64,000 bases of DNA from an uncultured Pelagibacteraceae bacterium (GTDB taxonomy: Bacteria > Pseudomonadota > Alphaproteobacteria > Pelagibacterales > Pelagibacteraceae): assembly GCA_902570125.1 (NCBI GenBank), contig CACFXK010000003.1, positions 1 through 64,000 on the forward strand. Reading direction: 5' to 3'. The notes beneath the pieces are model-generated. The model made no database searches. It was not told the DNA's origin and worked only from the letters and a program-made list of their open reading frames with translations. The position numbers were made by a program, and so were the translations under genes. The first letter of the stretch is position 1; each line of letters begins with the position of its first letter. Below, one piece after another: positions 1-37,319 of this stretch.

Positions 1-3000
1 TTGAGTAAAATTTTAACAATTGTATTTGTTATTTTGTTTTTTATAACATCTAAATCCTATTCAATAGAAGAAATAACTGAATTAACTGATGCTATTAATG
101 ATGCTAGAGAAGAATTTAATAATGCTTCAGAAGCTTCGACAGAACAATCAAAAATAATTGATCAAGCTTTAAAAGAAATTGATAAAGCAACCGAGTATGT
201 TCAGGAAGCTATAAATAACAACAATACTAAGGATGCGATAAAGACTTTAGAGTTTATAGAAAAATCTTTATCTGATGTCGAAAGTATAATTCCTCAAGAG
301 TTTGGGACAGATATGTCTAATATGGATGTTTCTGCAATATCAAAAGACGATATGGATATTGTAAATGAAATAACATCACAAATGAATGTTGCTAAAGAGG
401 AAAAGCTAAACAAATTTATGTCAGAACTAGTTGATCTAAATCAAAAAGGAATTGATACAGTTTCTATCTCTGAGAATTTAAACAGTATGGGAATTGATAC
501 TATAAAAATAGCTATCAATTTAAATAAAAACAAGCAAATAGAAACATGGACAAAAGAAGAATGGGCAGAGTCTTATAATGGTTCTATTTTAACATCTGCT
601 GGCTCAGAAGTAGTTGTCGATAAAGAAATTTCTTCAAAAGTTGATGATTTAGAGCAAAAATTACAAGTAAATAATATTAAAATATTGGAAAAAAGAAATT
701 CACTGACAGAACTACAAACAAAAATTGATCCTATATCAAATCAAATCACAGATCTTCAAACACAAAAATCTAATCTTTTAGCAAAATATAATGAAGAAAT
801 ATTAAAACAATCTTCAACAGTTTTATCTAGCGATGAGATAAGTCAAAGCAAAGAGTTGGCTGACCAATTTAATAATCAAATGAATGAAATTTCAAATGAG
901 ATCAAATTTGCAGAAGAACAATCAAGTTCGCTTCAGCAACAAGTTCAAGGTTTAAATTTAGAGTTAACTAATGAAATTGCTAATAAAACACAACTTCAAA
1001 ATAATATTAGAGATCTAAACAACCAACTTTCAGCAAATCAAGATATTTTATCTCAAAAAAATTTTGAGCTTGACCGTCTAAAAAATACAGATTTAAACAC
1101 AAAGGTAAATTCATTAAATGAACAATTACAATATGCATCTCGTGAAAGAGATTTTATTGAAAGCAATTTTGAAAAATCAATAGATTTAGAAGTAGATGCA
1201 CTTGCAAGGTATCATTCAGCGTTAGGAGACGTTGATAGTAAAGACTTTGATAAACAAATAGATTTTTCCATGAGAGAAGTTGGCGTAATAATGGATGCTG
1301 ATCCTAGAAAACATAGAGCATTTGAAATAGAAAAATACGCAACTTATGCTGGTTTTTCAGAGGACTATATTCAAAAAAGCATTCAAGCAGTTAATAGTGA
1401 TGATTGGGTAAGACAAAAAGAAATTTACAAAGAGGTTTCAAAAAAACTATCTAAAAATCCAGAATGGGTTGTTGATATACCATCTGATGCTGAACTCAAT
1501 GTTATGATCGAAGAAGATAAGGCAATACAAGCTGCTGCTCTTGCATCTATGGAGGTAGAAGGGATTAAGTCTGCATGGAATAAAAAAATTAATGAGCAAG
1601 CAAAAGAATTCCAACCTTTAGCAGGATTAAATACAACGTGGATTAAATATTCAAGCCTTCAGTCAAATGTGGTTGAAACAGACTTGGTAGCTAAAGAACT
1701 AGATAAAATTTTAAATTCTGATTCTGAATTAAAAAATCTTACAGCAACATTAGAAGAAAAACAAAAACAATTGAAAGATATACAAGAGTTTCAAAGATTA
1801 AAAACTGAAGAAATAAATGAACAAATAAAACCACTTCAAGGTCAGCTATCTAGTGAATACGCTAAGATGAATGATTTTAATCAACAATATATGCAAAAAT
1901 CATTAGAAAAAAATTCATTTATAAATTCAATTGGTGGATATGCTGCCCTGCAAAGAGATAAAGGCAACATTAATTATGGTGAGTGGACAAGAACTATTAA
2001 TGATTTAGATCAGCAACTCTCAGATATAAATAACAAAGCTCAAAACCAAATGATGGAAGCACAAAAAATTTCAAGTGAAATTTATAAAATTCAGATTGAT
2101 AAGAGCACATCAAATACTGAAATTAACAATTTGATAAATTTACAACGTGAAGTAGGGAATTTATCACTAGAACATAGTCGAAAACTTGGTGACGCTGCAG
2201 AACAAGCTAGATCAAATCTAATAGCACAAGTAGAAGAAGCTACAGCAAAGTATAATGAAATTATTTCACAAGAAAATCCAGATCTTAAAGCTGTTGAAGA
2301 AAAAGTTATAAAAATTTTAAAAGGTGTTCCAACTTTTGCAGATGACGCAGAAAATCTTGCAGGACTTGATCCAGCAACTTTAAGAGCAAAATTAATTGAT
2401 ATAACAGTAGGAACCAATAATGAGACAGCAGCCTTAAACGCAGCAAGGGATGCAGTTGCAAAAATAGGGAAGGATCCTGTAGGAAATTTGACAGGTCCTA
2501 TATGGGAAATGACCAACATTAAAGCTGCCGCAATTGTAAGATCAAAAAAATATGATTATGTAGATGATTACGCCTACATAACAGCAACTTATGGCGATCC
2601 CCTTAGTTTGAATTCGTCACAAAGAGAAGAGATTGAAGGTGAATTAAAAAATTTATTAGGAAAAGATAATATCAAATTAAAAACACTAAATACTAAAGTT
2701 TCAGAACTATCTAATGAATTAAATTTAACTAAAGAACAAAGTCAGAATTTAACAATGGAGATATCAAAATTAGAAAGTGAGTTATCTTCTTTAAAAAACT
2801 CAGAAAGTGAAATTCAAGCTCAGATAAGTAATTTATCAAATCAATTTAATTCTAAGGAAAGTTTAATTGCAGAAAAGACTCAAAATTTAGCTTCTCTTCA
2901 AGAACAATTAAATCCTATCAGCAATAGAATGAATGTTTTACAAGAACAAAGAGCTGAATTAGATACTAAGCTCAATGATCAATTAAATACTATCGCTAAC

Positions 3001-4602
3001 CAAATTGAAAGTCAGGGCCAAGGTACAGAGGAAGCAAATGCATTAAAAACTCAATTTGAAAACCAAATTGCTGAATTAGATAATCAACTAAAAGACTATG
3101 AAAATCAAACTGTTGAAATTAACAATCAATTAACTTCGCTTACAACTGAATTAAGTACTCTAGAAACTGAAAACCCAGAAATAGCAAGTCAAATTGAAAG
3201 CTTGAATCAGGATCTTAAAAATTTTGTAAACATAAAAGCTGACTTAGCTATGGCTACTGCAAAAAAAATGGGATTAGATGTTGATGAACAAGCATTAAAA
3301 TCAGTTGAAATACTTGATGGCAAAGTAGTAGTTACAATTAAAGGAACAGAATTAGTCAGAGTTGTTGATGAAAAAATGTTAACAGATCAAGCTGCAAAAT
3401 TTATTGATCCAATTTCTGAACTTTCTATCAATTCCAAAATATATTCCTCAAACGCTTTAAAACCAGAATTATTAACACAAGAATTAGTAACAGGTACATA
3501 CGAAGTAGCTAAAGAGGCAAGGGAAAAAGCTACTAAACGTTTAAGTGATTTAGAAGCAACACCAGGAGCAAGCAAAGCAGAAATACAAGCTGCAAAAGCT
3601 GCAAGTGATGCAGCAAAATATGCAGAAATTGCTGCTGGTCAATCTTTAGTTTCTAATGCAAATATAGCCTCAGCATCAATATCATCTAAGCAACAAACTT
3701 TAGAAGCATTAAGAAAAGTAGCAAGCACACCAGGTATGAATAAATTTGATGTACGTCGAGCAAATGCAGCGGTAAAAGCAGCAGAGGCACAAATTGCAGG
3801 TGGAAATTATAATTATATTGATGCGATAAGCAAAATCGCAAATGATGAACAAGATTTCAATCAATTTCGAGCAGATTTATATAGAAAAGATATAGAAGCA
3901 GCAAAGATAGCAGGAAATTTTCGTGAAGCTAATGAACTTCAAAAAGATTTGACAAGATTTCAAGAAAGATTAGTTGATGAAAGGAAAGCATTTGAAGCAG
4001 CTACAGCTAGAACAGAATATTTTGATGCAATAAGTGAAATAATAGGAAATAATACTGTAGGTATTTCAAGCTCATCGGTTCAAGAGTCAGTTAAAGCTGC
4101 TTCCAAAGGAGTAAATCAAACAAACGAATTTACAACTGCGTACGACTCGGCAAAATCAGCAAGAGAAGAAATTGATAAAAATTTAGCTTCACTAAGACAA
4201 GCAAGTGGAGGAACAACAACAGAAGCGATAAAGGCTGCAGAGGCAGCAAGAAGTGCAGCTCTTCAAGCTGAAATTGCAGCCGCTAATGTTGTAGCCTCAA
4301 ACAGTACAGCTGTTCATGAGGCCGCTCAAACGGCAGCTGCGGCAGCTCAAGAAGTAGCTCAAGAAGTAGCCCAAGCAGCTCAAACAGCTCAAGAGGCTGC
4401 TCAATCTGCAGCGGAGACAACCTTAGCAACATTAAAAGAAGTAGCGAGCACACCAGGAATGAATAAGTGGGATGTGCGTCGTGCAAATGCTGCAGTAAAG
4501 GCACAAGAGGCAAAAATGAGTGGATCAAGTTATGATTATCAGGGGGCGGTTGATAAAATTAACAACGACGAAAAAGCATGGAATGCAGCACGAGGAAATT
4601 AA
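1..4602 (+). CDS. Large exported coiled-coil/Ala-rich repeat protein, function unknown
   Basis: I do not recognise this 1533-residue protein. Residues 1-21 form a typical Sec signal peptide (Lys near the N-terminus, hydrophobic core, SYS before an acidic mature part), so it should be exported. Residues ~215-400, ~580-740 and ~890-1090 are Gln/Asn/Leu/Glu-rich with heptad-like spacing, as in long coiled coils. The C-terminal ~370 residues are Ala-rich and hold two copies of a module with the shared motif VASTPGMNK (from residues ~1240 and ~1481). No enzyme motif, membrane anchor or C-terminal sorting signal is visible. The reading frame is open at the left edge of the window: a TTG at base 1 gives a complete-looking signal peptide, but an upstream start cannot be excluded. 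It stands alone, 188 nt before tRNA-Leu. A structural or cell-surface/periplasmic role is a guess from composition only. Confidence 0.75.
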   Translation: MSKILTIVFVILFFITSKSYSIEEITELTDAINDAREEFNNASEASTEQSKIIDQALKEIDKATEYVQEAINNNNTKDAIKTLEFIEKSLSDVESIIPQEFGTDMSNMDVSAISKDDMDIVNEITSQMNVAKEEKLNKFMSELVDLNQKGIDTVSISENLNSMGIDTIKIAINLNKNKQIETWTKEEWAESYNGSILTSAGSEVVVDKEISSKVDDLEQKLQVNNIKILEKRNSLTELQTKIDPISNQITDLQTQKSNLLAKYNEEILKQSSTVLSSDEISQSKELADQFNNQMNEISNEIKFAEEQSSSLQQQVQGLNLELTNEIANKTQLQNNIRDLNNQLSANQDILSQKNFELDRLKNTDLNTKVNSLNEQLQYASRERDFIESNFEKSIDLEVDALARYHSALGDVDSKDFDKQIDFSMREVGVIMDADPRKHRAFEIEKYATYAGFSEDYIQKSIQAVNSDDWVRQKEIYKEVSKKLSKNPEWVVDIPSDAELNVMIEEDKAIQAAALASMEVEGIKSAWNKKINEQAKEFQPLAGLNTTWIKYSSLQSNVVETDLVAKELDKILNSDSELKNLTATLEEKQKQLKDIQEFQRLKTEEINEQIKPLQGQLSSEYAKMNDFNQQYMQKSLEKNSFINSIGGYAALQRDKGNINYGEWTRTINDLDQQLSDINNKAQNQMMEAQKISSEIYKIQIDKSTSNTEINNLINLQREVGNLSLEHSRKLGDAAEQARSNLIAQVEEATAKYNEIISQENPDLKAVEEKVIKILKGVPTFADDAENLAGLDPATLRAKLIDITVGTNNETAALNAARDAVAKIGKDPVGNLTGPIWEMTNIKAAAIVRSKKYDYVDDYAYITATYGDPLSLNSSQREEIEGELKNLLGKDNIKLKTLNTKVSELSNELNLTKEQSQNLTMEISKLESELSSLKNSESEIQAQISNLSNQFNSKESLIAEKTQNLASLQEQLNPISNRMNVLQEQRAELDTKLNDQLNTIANQIESQGQGTEEANALKTQFENQIAELDNQLKDYENQTVEINNQLTSLTTELSTLETENPEIASQIESLNQDLKNFVNIKADLAMATAKKMGLDVDEQALKSVEILDGKVVVTIKGTELVRVVDEKMLTDQAAKFIDPISELSINSKIYSSNALKPELLTQELVTGTYEVAKEAREKATKRLSDLEATPGASKAEIQAAKAASDAAKYAEIAAGQSLVSNANIASASISSKQQTLEALRKVASTPGMNKFDVRRANAAVKAAEAQIAGGNYNYIDAISKIANDEQDFNQFRADLYRKDIEAAKIAGNFREANELQKDLTRFQERLVDERKAFEAATARTEYFDAISEIIGNNTVGISSSSVQESVKAASKGVNQTNEFTTAYDSAKSAREEIDKNLASLRQASGGTTTEAIKAAEAARSAALQAEIAAANVVASNSTAVHEAAQTAAAAAQEVAQEVAQAAQTAQEAAQSAAETTLATLKEVASTPGMNKWDVRRANAAVKAQEAKMSGSSYDYQGAVDKINNDEKAWNAARGN
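3481..3870 (+). repeat. C-terminal duplicated module, copy 1 (protein-level repeat)
   Basis: This part encodes residues ~1161-1290 of the large coiled-coil protein. It starts with an AKEAREKA-type helix and an Ala-rich segment (KAEIQAAKAASDAAK). It ends in a block carrying ASTPGMNKFDVRRANAAVKA and NYNYIDAISKIANDEQ. The same order of segments recurs at 4123-4599. The final ~57 residues are the most alike, also at DNA level. Confidence 0.8.
4123..4599 (+). repeat. C-terminal duplicated module, copy 2 (protein-level repeat)
   Basis: This part encodes residues ~1375-1533 and repeats the order seen at 3481-3870: an AKSAREEIDKNLASL helix, an Ala-rich segment (here lengthened by AQE/AQT-type short repeats), then ASTPGMNKWDVRRANAAVKA and SYDYQGAVDKINNDEKAWN at the very C-terminus. 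The final block is near-identical to copy 1, whereas the linker is expanded with low-complexity Ala/Gln codons. Confidence 0.8.
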
Positions 4603-4690
4603 TATTTAGTTAAAACTCTTTTTAAAAAAATTTTAAGCACTATTGATTGTAAAATCTTTTAAATATTCTCGTATATTTTATAGGATAACC

Positions 4691-4707
4691 TGTACACAAC
4701 ATGTACA
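4691..4707. repeat. Pair of TGTACA palindromes in the intergenic region
   Basis: TGTACA occurs at 4691-4696 and again at 4702-4707, 11 nt apart (one helical turn), inside the 188-nt gap between the coiled-coil gene and tRNA-Leu. Each half is self-complementary. The spacing would suit a dimeric DNA-binding protein, but nothing else supports a regulatory role. The rest of the gap is A+T-rich without a clear terminator or gene. Confidence 0.3.
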
Positions 4708-4790
4708 TGGAGAGATAAAATAAAAAAATTTTACTTATTCCTCTTGTTCAATTATAAATATTAGCATAAATACTCATGAAATTCATTAAT

Positions 4791-4876
4791 GCCCTCGTGG
4801 TGAAATTGGTAGACACAAAGGACTTAAAATCCTTGCCATTTATGGAGTGCCAGTTCGAGTCTGGCCGAGGGCACCA
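4791..4876 (+). tRNA. tRNA-Leu (anticodon UAA)
   Basis: The 7-bp acceptor stem GCCCTCG/CGAGGGC, the anticodon loop CTTAAAA with TAA in the centre, a long variable arm, the T-arm GTTCGAGTC and an encoded CCA end give an 86-nt class II tRNA. The next gene, nadK, begins only 4 nt after the CCA. Confidence 0.97.
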
Positions 4877-4880
4877 CTAA

Positions 4881-5651
4881 ATGTTAAAGCCACACATACT
4901 TTTTGATCATACAAAAACATCAAAAAAAATTAAAAATTTTCTAGATCATAAAATTAAAAATATATCATTAGCTAAATGCAATCTAATAATTGTTGTTGGA
5001 GGTGATGGTTTTATGCTTTCGTCATTGAAAAAGTATAATAAATACAAAAAACCTTTCTATGGAATAAATGCTGGCAGTTATGGTTTTTTAATGAATAAGT
5101 TTTCGTCAAAAAATACTATTAGAAATTTATCTAAAGCAAAACAAGTTTCGATTTCGCCTTTAGAAATGAGTGTAAGGAATAAGTTTAATAAAACCAAAAA
5201 GTCTATTGCTATCAATGAAGTCTCAATTTTAAGACAAAGTAGACAAACTGCATCACTTGAAATTTCTAACGGTTCGCAAAAAATTATTAAAAAACTAGTT
5301 TCTGATGGTGTATTGATATCAACACCCGCAGGGAGCACTGCATATAATATGTCAGTTTATGGACCAATATTAAACTTAGACTCTAAAAAACTTTCTATTA
5401 GACCTATTAGTGCTTTCAGACCCAGAAGATGGAAGGGAAGAATTGTGAGCGATAAATCAAAAATTACAATTAAAAATCTAAATATTAATAAAAGACCAAT
5501 AAGTGCGGTTGCTGACAATTACGAAGTTAGAAATGCAAAGACAATATCTATCAAGATTAATAAAAAAGTTAAATTTAATCTTTTATATGATTCAAATAGA
5601 AGTCTTCAAAAAAAAATTAAAATAGAGCAAATTAGAAAAGAAACAAATTAA
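4881..5651 (+). CDS. nadK: NAD kinase
   Basis: This 256-residue cytoplasmic enzyme phosphorylates NAD to NADP using ATP. The diagnostic GGDG motif is at residues 40-43, followed by the NAGSYGFLMN segment and the C-terminal STPAGSTAYNMS motif (family form STPTGSTAY). The length is normal for alphaproteobacterial NAD kinases. The ATG at 4881 is the only start that keeps GGDG at the proper distance from the N-terminus. It lies 4 nt after tRNA-Leu, so the purine run of the tRNA acceptor stem (GAGG, 4868-4871) would be the only Shine-Dalgarno-like sequence. The stop overlaps the start of the next gene by one base, so the two are probably co-transcribed. Confidence 0.95.
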   Translation: MLKPHILFDHTKTSKKIKNFLDHKIKNISLAKCNLIIVVGGDGFMLSSLKKYNKYKKPFYGINAGSYGFLMNKFSSKNTIRNLSKAKQVSISPLEMSVRNKFNKTKKSIAINEVSILRQSRQTASLEISNGSQKIIKKLVSDGVLISTPAGSTAYNMSVYGPILNLDSKKLSIRPISAFRPRRWKGRIVSDKSKITIKNLNINKRPISAVADNYEVRNAKTISIKINKKVKFNLLYDSNRSLQKKIKIEQIRKETN

Positions 5652-6799
5652 TGAGTAATAAAAACTTTGGGTTTGGAACTCAAATAAGAAAATCTCCATA
5701 TTTTGATGCAACAGTCAGGTGGGGTGCAACAGGTTTTTCTGTTTATAACCATATGTATATACCTCGTGATTTTGGTGATCCTGAACAAAACTTTTGGAAC
5801 TTAATTGAAACAGCAATCTTATGTGACGTTGCTGTTGAAAGACAAGTTGAAATTACTGGACCAGATGCTTTTAAATTTATACAATTATTAACCCCAAGAG
5901 ATTTATCAAAATTATCTGTTGGTCAATGTAAATATGTTTTAATTACAAACGTAGAAGGTGGGGTGCTAAATGACCCAGTTCTCTTACGCTTAGGAGAAAA
6001 TCATTTTTGGTTATCTTTAGGTGATAGTGATATTTTATTATGGGCTCAAGGAGTTGCAATTAACTCTGGATTAGATGTGAAAATAACTGAGCCAGATGTT
6101 TCGCCATTACAATTACAAGGACCAAAGTCTGCTGAAATAATGATTAAATTATTTGGAGAAGACATTAAAGATTTAAAATATTATTGGTTTAGAGAATTAT
6201 ATTTAGACGGAATACCATTAATTGTTTCAAGAACTGGCTGGTCGAGTGAATTTGGTTATGAATTATTTTTAAGAGATGGTTCAAAAGGAAATGAACTATA
6301 TGAAAAAATTATGTTAGCTGGGAAGGAATTTGGACTTAAACCAGGTCATACTTCTTCTATAAGAAGAATAGAAGGTGGGATGCTCTCTTACCATGCGGAT
6401 GCTGATATAAATACAAATCCATTTGAATTAGGTTTAGATCGATTAATTAACTTAGATGGGAATATTAATTTTATAGGCAAAGATGCACTTAAAAAAATTA
6501 AAGCAGAAGGGGTTAAAAGATTACAAGTTGGTTTAGAAATTAAATGTGAAAAGTTAAGTGGACCCAATACTACATTTTGGCCCTTAATAGTTAATAATAA
6601 TACTATAGGAAAGATTACATCAGCCGTTTATTCTCCACGCTTGAAAAAGAATATTGCTTTAGCTATGGTTGACATTCAATATTCTAAAATTGGTTTAGAA
6701 ATTGAAGTTTCAATTCAGGAAAACAATTTTAAATGTGAAGTTATTGAAAAACCTTTTTTTGATCCAAAAAAACAAATTACATCTAAATCTTTAAAATAG
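5651..6799 (+). CDS. DmdA/GcvT-like folate-dependent aminomethyltransferase family protein, substrate unknown
   Basis: This 382-residue protein belongs to the GcvT family, whose members bind tetrahydrofolate and accept a one-carbon unit from a methylated substrate. Blocks shared with DMSP demethylase (DmdA) as I recall that family are VYNHM (31-35), VERQVEI (62-68), TPRDLS (81-86), NDPVLLRL (107-114) and QGPKSAE. Asp108 aligns with the catalytic Asp of T-protein (inference). A typical short GcvT of the glycine cleavage operon is unlikely, since no gcvH or gcvP is nearby. The sequence is not what I remember of characterised SAR11 DmdA, so I call it a DmdA-like paralogue. It overlaps nadK by one base, which suggests an operon; tRNA-Thr follows in convergent orientation 3 nt downstream. 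Confidence 0.85.
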   Translation: MSNKNFGFGTQIRKSPYFDATVRWGATGFSVYNHMYIPRDFGDPEQNFWNLIETAILCDVAVERQVEITGPDAFKFIQLLTPRDLSKLSVGQCKYVLITNVEGGVLNDPVLLRLGENHFWLSLGDSDILLWAQGVAINSGLDVKITEPDVSPLQLQGPKSAEIMIKLFGEDIKDLKYYWFRELYLDGIPLIVSRTGWSSEFGYELFLRDGSKGNELYEKIMLAGKEFGLKPGHTSSIRRIEGGMLSYHADADINTNPFELGLDRLINLDGNINFIGKDALKKIKAEGVKRLQVGLEIKCEKLSGPNTTFWPLIVNNNTIGKITSAVYSPRLKKNIALAMVDIQYSKIGLEIEVSIQENNFKCEVIEKPFFDPKKQITSKSLK

Positions 6800-6802
6800 A
6801 AG

Positions 6803-6878
6803 TGGTGCCCCCGCACGGATTCGAACCGCGGACCTATTGATTACAAATCAATTGCTCTACCAACTGAGCTACAAGGGC
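6803..6878 (-). tRNA. tRNA-Thr (anticodon UGU)
   Basis: On the minus strand the acceptor stem GCCCTTG/CGGGGGC (two G-U pairs), the D-arm AGCTCAGTTGGTAGAGC, the anticodon TGT in the loop ATTTGTAAT, the T-loop GGTTCGAATCC and an encoded CCA give a 76-nt tRNA. It lies 41 nt downstream of rlmB on the same strand and may share its transcript. Confidence 0.97.
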
Positions 6879-6919
6879 GTAAGAGGTTTTTTAATAGTAT
6901 TTAATATATTATCAAGAAA

Positions 6920-7657
6920 TTATTTTTGTTGATTTATATGATGAAAAACTATTGCTGCACTATTAGATATATTTAAACTTTCAACATTTTTGTTAATATT
7001 AATCTTTACTGAAAAATCTGTATACTTTTCTGTATGTTTATTTAAACCATGTCCTTCAGAACCAAAAAGTAAAATATTATTTCCATTCCAATTGACATCA
7101 GTAAAATTTTTGTCACTGTTTGCTGTAAATCCATAAACCCAAAAATTTTTATCTCTTAAATATTTTAACGTAGTATTTATATTTGATACTTGAAAAATAT
7201 TTAAGTATTCAACACAGCCACTTGCAGATTTATACAATAATTTACTTTCACTTGGAAAATGTCTCTCTTTCACAATAAGTCCGTCAATATTAAATGAAGT
7301 TGCGCTCCTAATTAACGAGCCAATATTTCTGGGATCTGTCACTTCATCCAAACAAACAAAAGTTAAATTATTCTTGCCTCTAATGAACTCTTTCAGTTCT
7401 GGATTTTCTAAATGTTCTATTTCAGCAACATACCCCTGATGTAGTATATCTTCGCTTCTGCAGTATTTATCTAATTCTTTTTTTGTTTTAAAAAAAACTT
7501 TTATATCTTTTAATAAATTTTTATGAGGGCTTTGTTTGTGAATGTTTTTTTTACTTTCCTCTGTTAAAAATATTTTTATTATTCGTCGTTTAGGGTTTCT
7601 CAATGCCTCAATAACTGCATGACGTCCTGCTATAAAAAAGGATGATTTTTGAGTCAT
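6920..7657 (-). CDS. rlmB: 23S rRNA (guanosine-2'-O)-methyltransferase RlmB (TrmH/SpoU family)
   Basis: This 245-residue SPOUT-class methyltransferase uses S-adenosylmethionine to 2'-O-methylate a conserved G in domain V of 23S rRNA (G2251 in E. coli, by family assignment). An N-terminal substrate-binding domain (residues ~5-75, beginning FIAGRHAVIEALRN) precedes the SpoU domain with motif 1 (DEVTDPRNIGSLIRSA), motif 2 (LLFGSEGHGLN) and motif 3 (LNISNSAAIVFHHI), which build the knotted cofactor site. The length is normal. Its place beside the tRNA/tuf cluster fits translation-related genes. The closely related TrmH is the main alternative, but the N-terminal domain favours RlmB. Confidence 0.93.
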   Translation of the reverse strand: MTQKSSFFIAGRHAVIEALRNPKRRIIKIFLTEESKKNIHKQSPHKNLLKDIKVFFKTKKELDKYCRSEDILHQGYVAEIEHLENPELKEFIRGKNNLTFVCLDEVTDPRNIGSLIRSATSFNIDGLIVKERHFPSESKLLYKSASGCVEYLNIFQVSNINTTLKYLRDKNFWVYGFTANSDKNFTDVNWNGNNILLFGSEGHGLNKHTEKYTDFSVKININKNVESLNISNSAAIVFHHINQQK

Positions 7658-36401: not shown

Positions 36402-37319
36402 ATGAAAAATATAATTTTTCAAATAATTATAATATTTTTTTTTACATCAAATATTTTAAAAGCAAATCCATCAAAAATAGACGGTATAAAATTTTATACG
36501 TTAGGTAATGATAACATGCCTTGGTTTAATTTAGACAATGAAAAAGATTTAATTGACTTGTCAAATATTGACTGCCAATGGAGTCATGGAAAAAAAACTA
36601 AATGCAGAATGCACCTGTCACCTTTATATAACTTTCCCAAAGATGGATTATTAATTCAAAATAAAATTGTTAGATCTGGCAAAATTGCTTGGAAATTTAA
36701 AAATGGTGATGGTGATTGTGGTCAACAAAGAAAATCAGATGAGTGCAATACCTTTAGAGAAAGATCTGAGGTTAGTATGTTAGGATTAAAGTCTAAAAAT
36801 ACATGGTTTAAATTTAGCATTTATATTCCCGAAAATAGTGAATTTACTATTCCTATAAGTAATACTATATGGCAAATACATTCTAAAGCGGGTCCAGTAA
36901 ATTTTATGTTTAGAATTGCTCCAAATGGAGATTTACAATGGACAGATTTTGTAAATCATAGTTTTGGAGGATTTGATACTTATAAAATTTTAGAAGCAAA
37001 TAATGTAAAAGGTAAATGGAATGATTTTGTTATTAATATTGAATTTGTTGATTGGCCAAATAAGAGTTTTATTAAGATTTGGGCTAATAACGAACTTGTA
37101 GTTAATTACAATGGATTAACTAATAATAATATAAGCAAACAGTCGTATATGAAGTTTGGAATATACAAAAGTAATATTAATAGGTTTAATATAATGCATA
37201 AAGGTAATCCTCCAAAAAGAGCAGATACAATTGTATATTATGACTCTATAGCTATAGGTAAAAAGTGCAAAGATCTTAAGTTAGATGAAGAAAATAATAG
37301 TTGCAAAAAATTAAAATAA
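36402..37319 (+). CDS. Secreted polysaccharide-lyase-like (heparin lyase I-like jelly-roll) protein
   Basis: This 305-residue protein has a clear signal peptide (residues 1-20, long hydrophobic run, LKA before NP), so it is exported. Six cysteines fall in close pairs (DCQWSHGKKTKC, DCGQQRKSDEC and the C-terminal KKCKD...SCKK), as expected of an extracytoplasmic protein with disulfides. The order RERSEV, then WQIHSKAG, then GKWNDFVINIEF followed by IKIWANNELVVNYNG resembles the beta-jelly-roll family of heparin lyase I-like polysaccharide lyases (Pfam Polysacc_lyase type). That assignment is from pattern memory; substrate and activity are unknown. It lies directly after the ribosomal cluster, 66 nt past rplQ, and just before a pseudouridine synthase gene. 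A laminin G-like carbohydrate-binding protein without lyase activity is the alternative. Confidence 0.6.
   Translation: MKNIIFQIIIIFFFTSNILKANPSKIDGIKFYTLGNDNMPWFNLDNEKDLIDLSNIDCQWSHGKKTKCRMHLSPLYNFPKDGLLIQNKIVRSGKIAWKFKNGDGDCGQQRKSDECNTFRERSEVSMLGLKSKNTWFKFSIYIPENSEFTIPISNTIWQIHSKAGPVNFMFRIAPNGDLQWTDFVNHSFGGFDTYKILEANNVKGKWNDFVINIEFVDWPNKSFIKIWANNELVVNYNGLTNNNISKQSYMKFGIYKSNINRFNIMHKGNPPKRADTIVYYDSIAIGKKCKDLKLDEENNSCKKLK

Follow-up and report, generated by a model that had tools for sequence, protein, structure and literature searches.

A probably exported coiled-coil protein with differing, often doubled tail modules at a variable site in Pelagibacteraceae

The large protein at the contig edge

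The window, by which we mean the whole stretch of 64,000 nucleotides that was analysed, is the start of contig C3 in the genome of an uncultured Pelagibacteraceae bacterium (1.27 Mb in 38 contigs, completeness 86.5%). It opens with a gene for a large coiled-coil protein, followed by a tRNA gene and a gene that marks the site:

1..4602, + strand: large, probably exported coiled-coil protein; 1533-codon open frame, its 5' end cut by the contig edge
1..63, + strand: probable Sec signal sequence without lipobox (residues 1-21), by inspection of the sequence
1..534, + strand: N-terminal domain conserved in the family (residues 1-178), by alignment A1 and HMM matches
529..675, + strand: W-module (residues 177-225), compared with the repeated terminal module of a paralogue in genome G054
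2638..3255, + strand: second coiled-coil stretch (residues 880-1085), by similarity to coiled-coil models
3241..3480, + strand: conserved stretch after which homologues diverge (residues 1081-1160), by sequence comparison
3490..3876, + strand: duplication copy 1 (residues 1164-1292), by self-alignment against shuffles
3505..3666, + strand: weaker hairpin of the block kind within copy 1 (residues 1169-1222)
3691..3864, + strand: 58-residue block, internal copy (residues 1231-1288), by block profile
4132..4599, + strand: duplication copy 2, at the extreme C-terminus (residues 1378-1533), by self-alignment against shuffles
4234..4413, + strand: Ala/Gln-rich linker ahead of the terminal block (residues 1412-1471), by composition
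4414..4587, + strand: 58-residue block, terminal copy (residues 1472-1529), by profile and structure model
4791..4876, + strand: tRNA-Leu(taa), at the variable site, by tRNA call
4881..5651, + strand: NAD kinase-like gene, marker of the site, with matches in 56/58 genomes of the genus

The frame begins with TTG at the first base of the contig. Two named records hold close relatives of the protein, uncultured Pelagibacteraceae AG-390-A21 (L046; best segment identity to the window 88%) and AG-919-F09 (L047; 69%), and since the L046 protein has MKSQ ahead of the same LSKIL, four codons appear to be missing from the window's frame. The earlier note had taken the product to be exported, and it probably is: a Sec-type signal sequence is seen on inspection.

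Alignment A1 of the N-terminal domain (N-domain) comprises 13 proteins and has 8 invariant columns; the window's protein, itself a row of A1, matches its profile at E 7e-73. Against solved structures the N-domain gave 26 weak matches, E 0.019 or worse, mostly to viral HA2 helices. The W-module may share ancestry with the G054 paralogue's repeated terminal module, its scores against the three repeats being reached by 2, 90 and 0 of 1000 shuffles. Residues 880-1085 resemble SMC, Rad50 and similar models in their coiled-coil parts only, at scores well short of the cut-offs in every case. A function in anti-phage defence was considered and rejected, the PADLOC matches (residues 873-1086 or 23-294) being weak, at E 7.8e-6 or worse, and read as coiled-coil similarity. 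The conserved stretch at residues 1081-1160 scores 106-382 across seven proteins and is predicted, at low confidence, to contain two strands.

Downstream lies the gene at 4881..5651, which we take to be that of NAD kinase. A scan of positions 4300-5000 gave one promoter-like site (2.4 expected) and one terminator-like site on the minus strand (0.3 expected). Further along, the window carries a polysaccharide lyase gene at 36402-37319 (PF14099, E 4.6e-22).

The internal duplication and its age

An internal duplication had been proposed at positions 3481-4599, which are indeed residues 1161-1533 of the frame, and the duplication is real. Residues 1164-1292 align with residues 1378-1533 at a score of 253, far above the 55.5 +/- 8.2 obtained with shuffles of the second half (maximum 89, n=500) and above local 20-residue shuffles, which reach at most 83 (n=60). 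The last block of the two copies had been described as nearly identical. This is true of the core, VASTPGMNKxDVRRANAAVKA, in which one residue differs, but not of the 58-residue block as a whole, which is identical at 35/58 positions, with the same codon at 22 of these 35 shared residues. A profile built from the window's two blocks and both L046 copies scores 117.4 bits at residues 1231-1288 and 119.3 bits at 1472-1529. Within copy 1, the hairpin at residues 1169-1222 (6.8 bits with the block profile) aligns with residues 1231-1288 at a score of 58, reached by 0/1000 shuffles; the corresponding pair within copy 2 is not significant (score 27, 277/1000 shuffles).

The second copy does contain an Ala/Gln-rich stretch (A+Q 60% of the 60 residues 1412-1471, against 18% for the whole protein), but this was not gained by that copy, as the earlier note had it. 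A similar linker precedes the terminal module in all eight long homologues described below, at A+Q 42-63% of 60 residues, and we therefore regard it as part of the family plan.

Nor is the duplication recent. The two blocks of the window's protein differ at a dS of 0.85, which is not below the dS between copies of different genomes (0.59-0.84), and on dS both recent duplication and gene conversion are rejected. Between the window and L046 the internal block is identical at 47/58 positions (dS 0.63) and the terminal block at 34/58 (dS 0.84), while residues 1-1100 are identical at 1019/1100 (dS 0.21); the two blocks of L046 are identical to each other at 27/58 (dS 0.71). Of the two copies, the terminal one diverges fastest. 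Given these values, which are rough because the stretches compared are short, and given the presence of both copies in L046, we conclude that the duplication predates the split between the window and L046. In proteins with other module types the inter-copy dS is 2.07 (L047), 1.42 (G073), and 2.06 and 1.40 (two D-type proteins).

The statement that the block belongs to no named domain also stands: above cut-off it matched neither a Pfam nor an NCBIfam family, and it had no counterpart among PHROGs or solved structures, the single match among PDB sequences having an E of 0.91. With a threshold of E<=0.01, a search of 399 genus genomes with the block profile picked out the window's genome alone, and none of 57 high-quality genomes, and the 373-residue tail found 1/101 genomes, again its own; both searches would miss diverged relatives such as the terminal module of G680. 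A structure model of the C-terminal region, made from two sequences, is poor overall (mean pLDDT 56.1, pTM 0.38), and a PDB fold search with it gave 0/89 matches at E<=0.001. Residues 1475-1524 are modelled better, with block means of pLDDT 84-92, as a long helix followed, after a turn at TPGMNKW, by two more helices.

Homologues, partner gene and genomic site

Taking E<1e-15 as a strong match, a cut chosen here, we found that 15 of 143 family genomes, for which 90% completeness was asked, carry a strong N-domain, the window's own genome included. At E<=0.001 the count is 50/143, the weak matches mostly being confined to the opening 60-94 positions of the profile, a part that takes in the signal sequence. 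The strong matches come with a second gene, the partner, whose ORFs are 158 to 300 aa long and whose alignment (A2, 12 sequences) has 16 invariant columns. Its profile matched 17/143 family genomes at E<=0.001, 17/198 genomes of the order at E<=1e-5 (a few partial), and in the class sample, 289 genomes from 223 genera, only the window's own. The family is thus patchy and accessory, and in these samples is found only in SAR11. The partner matched no solved structure at E<=0.1, and its structure model was too poor for use (mean pLDDT 45.1).

The linkage between the two genes is close. Among 27 distinct proteins with a strong N-domain, counted in scanned loci with L003-L045 outside the rescan, the partner lies immediately upstream in 24 and is fused in two, that is, in 26 of the 26 that could be tested; the 27th is the window's own protein, where the contig edge is in the way and beyond which its partner gene would sit. 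One G054 locus (L049), in which the partner is downstream of a large gene whose N-part lies off the contig, is an exception and was excluded from the count. Both the partner and the long coiled-coil protein have signal-like N-termini on inspection, and in L046 the pair occupies about 5.5 kb. The two fusions, L055 5831-8581 and L056 4765-7506, hold partner and N-domain in one protein of 913-916 aa, a hint that the two products may interact.

Five further proteins, of about 575-716 aa, combine a partner-like part with a weak or undetected N-domain. One of them, on contig C16, is the only partner match in the window's genome; this second family member (L102 1968-4118, fused, 716 aa) ends in a C-terminus (..GLGYSSFADAV..GTNYTVDSAKEALGQ) of a kind common to proteins of four other genomes. 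It contains a SHOCT-like stretch (E 3.3e-5, 23.9 bits, under the Pfam cut-off of 27); the L046 partner has no SHOCT match. A separate Met/Gly/Ala-rich branch (L059 4324-6765, L105, L106, L108 and L111; three sequences read, two by their tails only) comprises proteins of 813-840 aa with a collagen-like Gly-Pro tail and a partner gene upstream. In this Met/Gly-rich group and in L104 the partner matches are weak, with a best E per gene of about 1e-8 to 1e-10.

In eight long homologues (the window, L046, L047, G073, G054, G301, G362 and G680) the C-terminus is complete. They share a common plan of N-domain, coiled coils, Ala/Gln linker and terminal module, and most also have an internal module. 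The conserved stretch ends at residues 1039-1235 in the seven homologues compared (1160 in the window); that of G680 was placed by eye only. What follows it differs between proteins: by sequence comparison the PGMNK module appears as one of several unrelated types at these tail positions, which was beyond the reach of the earlier note. Type A (PGMNK) occurs twice in the window and in L046, and a diverged A-like module occurs once, at the terminus, in G680 (score 66 against a maximum of 44 in 2000 shuffles), so that copy number varies among homologues; the best split for a doubling in G680, 68, lay under the null maximum of 72. The Cys-paired type B occurs twice in L047, G073 and G054, and G301 and G362 pair an internal B-like module with an unrelated terminal E module. 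In other subfamilies, type D is doubled in G054 and G363, and type C in a second G054 protein, which has a third copy by motif. In an all-against-all comparison of 13 tail modules that had been picked by eye, 18 of the 78 pairs beat shuffles; each of the 18 joins modules of one group (A, B/B', D or E), and none is an A-B pair; within B/B', 2/15 pairs did not beat shuffles.

Doubling of the same type is therefore common but not universal. It is seen in five of the eight long homologues and in three shorter or partial paralogues, the remaining long homologues being mixed (2/8) or having a single, terminal module (1/8), and it was not found in L050, L051, L057 or L059. Several marginal cases, given here as observed score over null maximum, were left out of this count: L055 (47/44), the type-F tail of short fused forms (57/51, 52/46, 61/46, 46/44 and 40/47), L110 (36/40) and L058 (40/38).

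Cysteine is absent from the window and L046 proteins. In the six long homologues that contain it (L047, L048, L049, L050, L051 and L157) every Cys is in the tail, mostly in C-x4-C pairs whose sequences differ between homologues, an arrangement that suits an oxidising compartment. The incomplete L052 protein has one Cys, at residue 216, and L053 and L054 have a C-x3-C in mid-protein. At the extreme C-terminus, 16/27 family members have a penultimate Gly and 5/27 a terminal Cys, compared with 8.4% and 0.9% in a background of 227 ORFs from these loci; we draw nothing from the Gly excess, as the 27 sequences are related to one another and the background contains mechanical ORFs as well as some members of the family.

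The tails are also mosaic in their divergence. A sliding comparison of the window and L046 proteins shows synonymous divergence that is low in mid-protein, high at the tail and raised to a smaller extent at residues 1-300. Using a max-chi-square test on synonymous changes with 1000 permutations per pair, we found a jump near the tail in three of four homologue pairs, in each case reached by 0/1000 permutations. For the window and L046 the break lies at residue 1251, where divergence rises from 0.111 to 0.353 (84.3, with permutations reaching at most 22.8); for G054 and G363 at 985, from 0.169 to 0.490 (57.9 against 15.2); and for G073 and G054 at 1428, from 0.115 to 0.278, by a narrow margin (21.7 against 20.7). 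The fourth pair, the fused L055 and L056, gave no breakpoint (283/1000 permutations). The large proteins of G073 and G054 (L048 and L049), otherwise close, have a second strongly diverged stretch, central, at about residues 550-750, and because this stretch and residues 1-300 of the window/L046 pair are also raised, the tail is not the sole mosaic part. We read the mosaic tails as a likely result of exchange between strains by homologous recombination, though a locally raised mutation rate may be an alternative source of the jumps. High recombination in marine SAR11 is reported in PMC4053759, which also gives the hypothesis that it serves variability of phage receptors.

Seven of the eight long homologues (the window, L047, G073, G054, G301, G362 and G680, the last placed without a tRNA scan) lie around tRNA-Leu and the NAD kinase gene. 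Gene names at this locus were given by similarity to genes of the window, L046 and L050 and are in part presumed. Where its flanks are in view, the site is bounded by SfsA/CinA on one side and tRNA-Thr/RlmB/Tuf on the other. The pair or the large gene is upstream of NAD kinase in five of these homologues and downstream, ahead of tRNA-Thr, in G073 and G054. The L046 copy lies between lpdA and priA, and a G262 copy runs off its contig on the CinA side. We retrieved the site from 40 genomes, the window's own included, out of the 56 with an NAD kinase match, and its gene content between the anchors varies widely; in the window the stretch from tRNA-Leu/NAD kinase to tRNA-Thr/RlmB, very variable among these 40 sampled genus genomes, is 4791-7657. 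The pair was present in 1/40 of the fetched stretches (G301), several of which stop at contig ends, so that a more distant pair would be missed. Four hypervariable regions (HVR1-4) are described in HTCC1062 (PMC2217521). The present site resembles them in its high gene turnover, in cell-surface genes and genes of unknown function, and in tRNA flanks such as those of HVR4, but we could not assign the tRNA-Leu/NAD kinase/RlmB site to any of the four named regions.

Possible roles of the protein pair

We consider the chances about even that the protein is an exported stalk with recombining, exchangeable tips, whose surface exposure we infer. The window would then hold one half of an exported two-gene system, restricted to SAR11 in our samples and made up of a long coiled-coil rod and the partner, a protein of about 160-300 aa whose gene lies just upstream. 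The rod would have a conserved base, the N-domain, and a tail usually carrying one small module in two places, following the conserved shaft and again at the extreme end, beyond the Ala/Gln linker. Base and partner may anchor or assemble the rod; the tail, probably surface-exposed, would reach the cell surface, and the modules would be the part that meets the outside, where phages, grazers or neighbours could select for exchange of outward modules. The same module at both places might form a two-headed tip or an intrachain pair. In favour of this reading are the partner linkage, the grouping of the modules, their frequent doubling, the mosaic tails, the shared site, the accessory occurrence and the Cys pattern of the tails. 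Against it are the homologues in which the module is not doubled, the pair without a breakpoint, the raised divergence outside the tail, the G054 locus with a downstream partner, the poor model of the region and the tails' lack of relatives in phage records and viral contigs, as detailed below. A further point against the stalk is that Pfam scans matched no outer-membrane anchor or transporter family in the pair: neither a TPS domain nor a TpsB barrel partner was found in the large proteins and partners scanned, and no C-terminal barrel anchor of a trimeric autotransporter. L058 has a weak Trp-ring match (E 0.0096, 16.6 bits against a cut-off of 27.1).

Alternatively, rod and partner may be a periplasmic scaffold or tether, spanning or bracing the periplasm without ever being outside; the modules would then attach to components of the envelope, and their variation would come from drift and the general recombination of SAR11. 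We think this possible, if on the unlikely side. It accords with N-termini that look like signals although neither a secretion partner nor an outer-membrane anchor was matched among known families, with similarities of coiled-coil type only, and with the fused forms, in which the partner is joined to an N-domain that is strong in two proteins and weak in others; yet it would be unusual for a structural tether to have its tail replaced with modules of unrelated type and to be an accessory at a site of variable content. A conserved N-part, a variable C-part and a sharp point of divergence might instead indicate a polymorphic toxin with a swapped C-terminal effector. In CdiA and Rhs proteins, likewise, a long conserved N-part is followed by a C-terminal part that differs between strains. 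Such a toxin is very improbable here, since no toxin family was matched above cut-off and no consistent gene follows. Next come tRNA-Leu then NAD kinase in the window, L047 and L051, priA in L046, tRNA-Thr/RlmB in G054 or unrelated genes elsewhere, and no cognate immunity gene was found directly downstream among ORFs of at least 80 aa, a limit under which a tiny one could be missed. Moreover, the same module stands twice in 5/8 tails, the block is a 58-residue helical module, and the partner, in a further difference from CdiA and Rhs, matches no known transporter family.

Equally little favours a domesticated fibre from a phage or mobile element. The site is flanked by tRNA genes, and a related 1139-aa protein has weak PHROG tail-fibre matches, the best at E 5.6e-11 over an Ala/Lys/Glu-rich stretch (residues 206-314). 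Against this, the window tail and the L046 partner matched no PHROG, four tails found no match in 50,697 phage records, and nothing was found in viral contigs with the tails of the window and L047 or with the partner profile. The reading of the earlier note, a plain recent duplication in a low-complexity surface protein, would account for two clear copies and an Ala/Gln-rich linker, but is hard to credit with a dS of 0.85 between copies that L046 also has, and of 1.4-2.1 in other module types.

A fuller version of the exported stalk, which we regard as speculative and doubtful, would make it a dedicated accessory surface system of SAR11: a partner-assembled coiled-coil stalk at a tRNA-flanked site, with small, usually paired tip modules swapped between strains, acting in recognition (as pelagiphage receptor or decoy, or in recognition of kin or grazers), its diversity kept by high recombination. 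No description of this two-gene family appeared among the papers listed by a literature search. SAR11 genomes are streamlined, yet a minority keep an exported pair with exchanged-looking tails. Should the tail lie at the surface, this family would be a candidate for the variable recognition proteins proposed (PMC4053759) to explain high recombination in SAR11, and it would supply defined modules, types A to E, for binding studies.

In architecture alone, the protein may be likened to better-known ones. Streptococcal M proteins are coiled-coil rods with a hypervariable end; here too a coiled-coil rod ends variably, but at the C-terminus and in a SAR11 bacterium. FIVAR, a small three-helix repeat, consists of short Ala-rich helical hairpins with a turn, which the block resembles, but a Pfam scan of the tail gave no FIVAR match.
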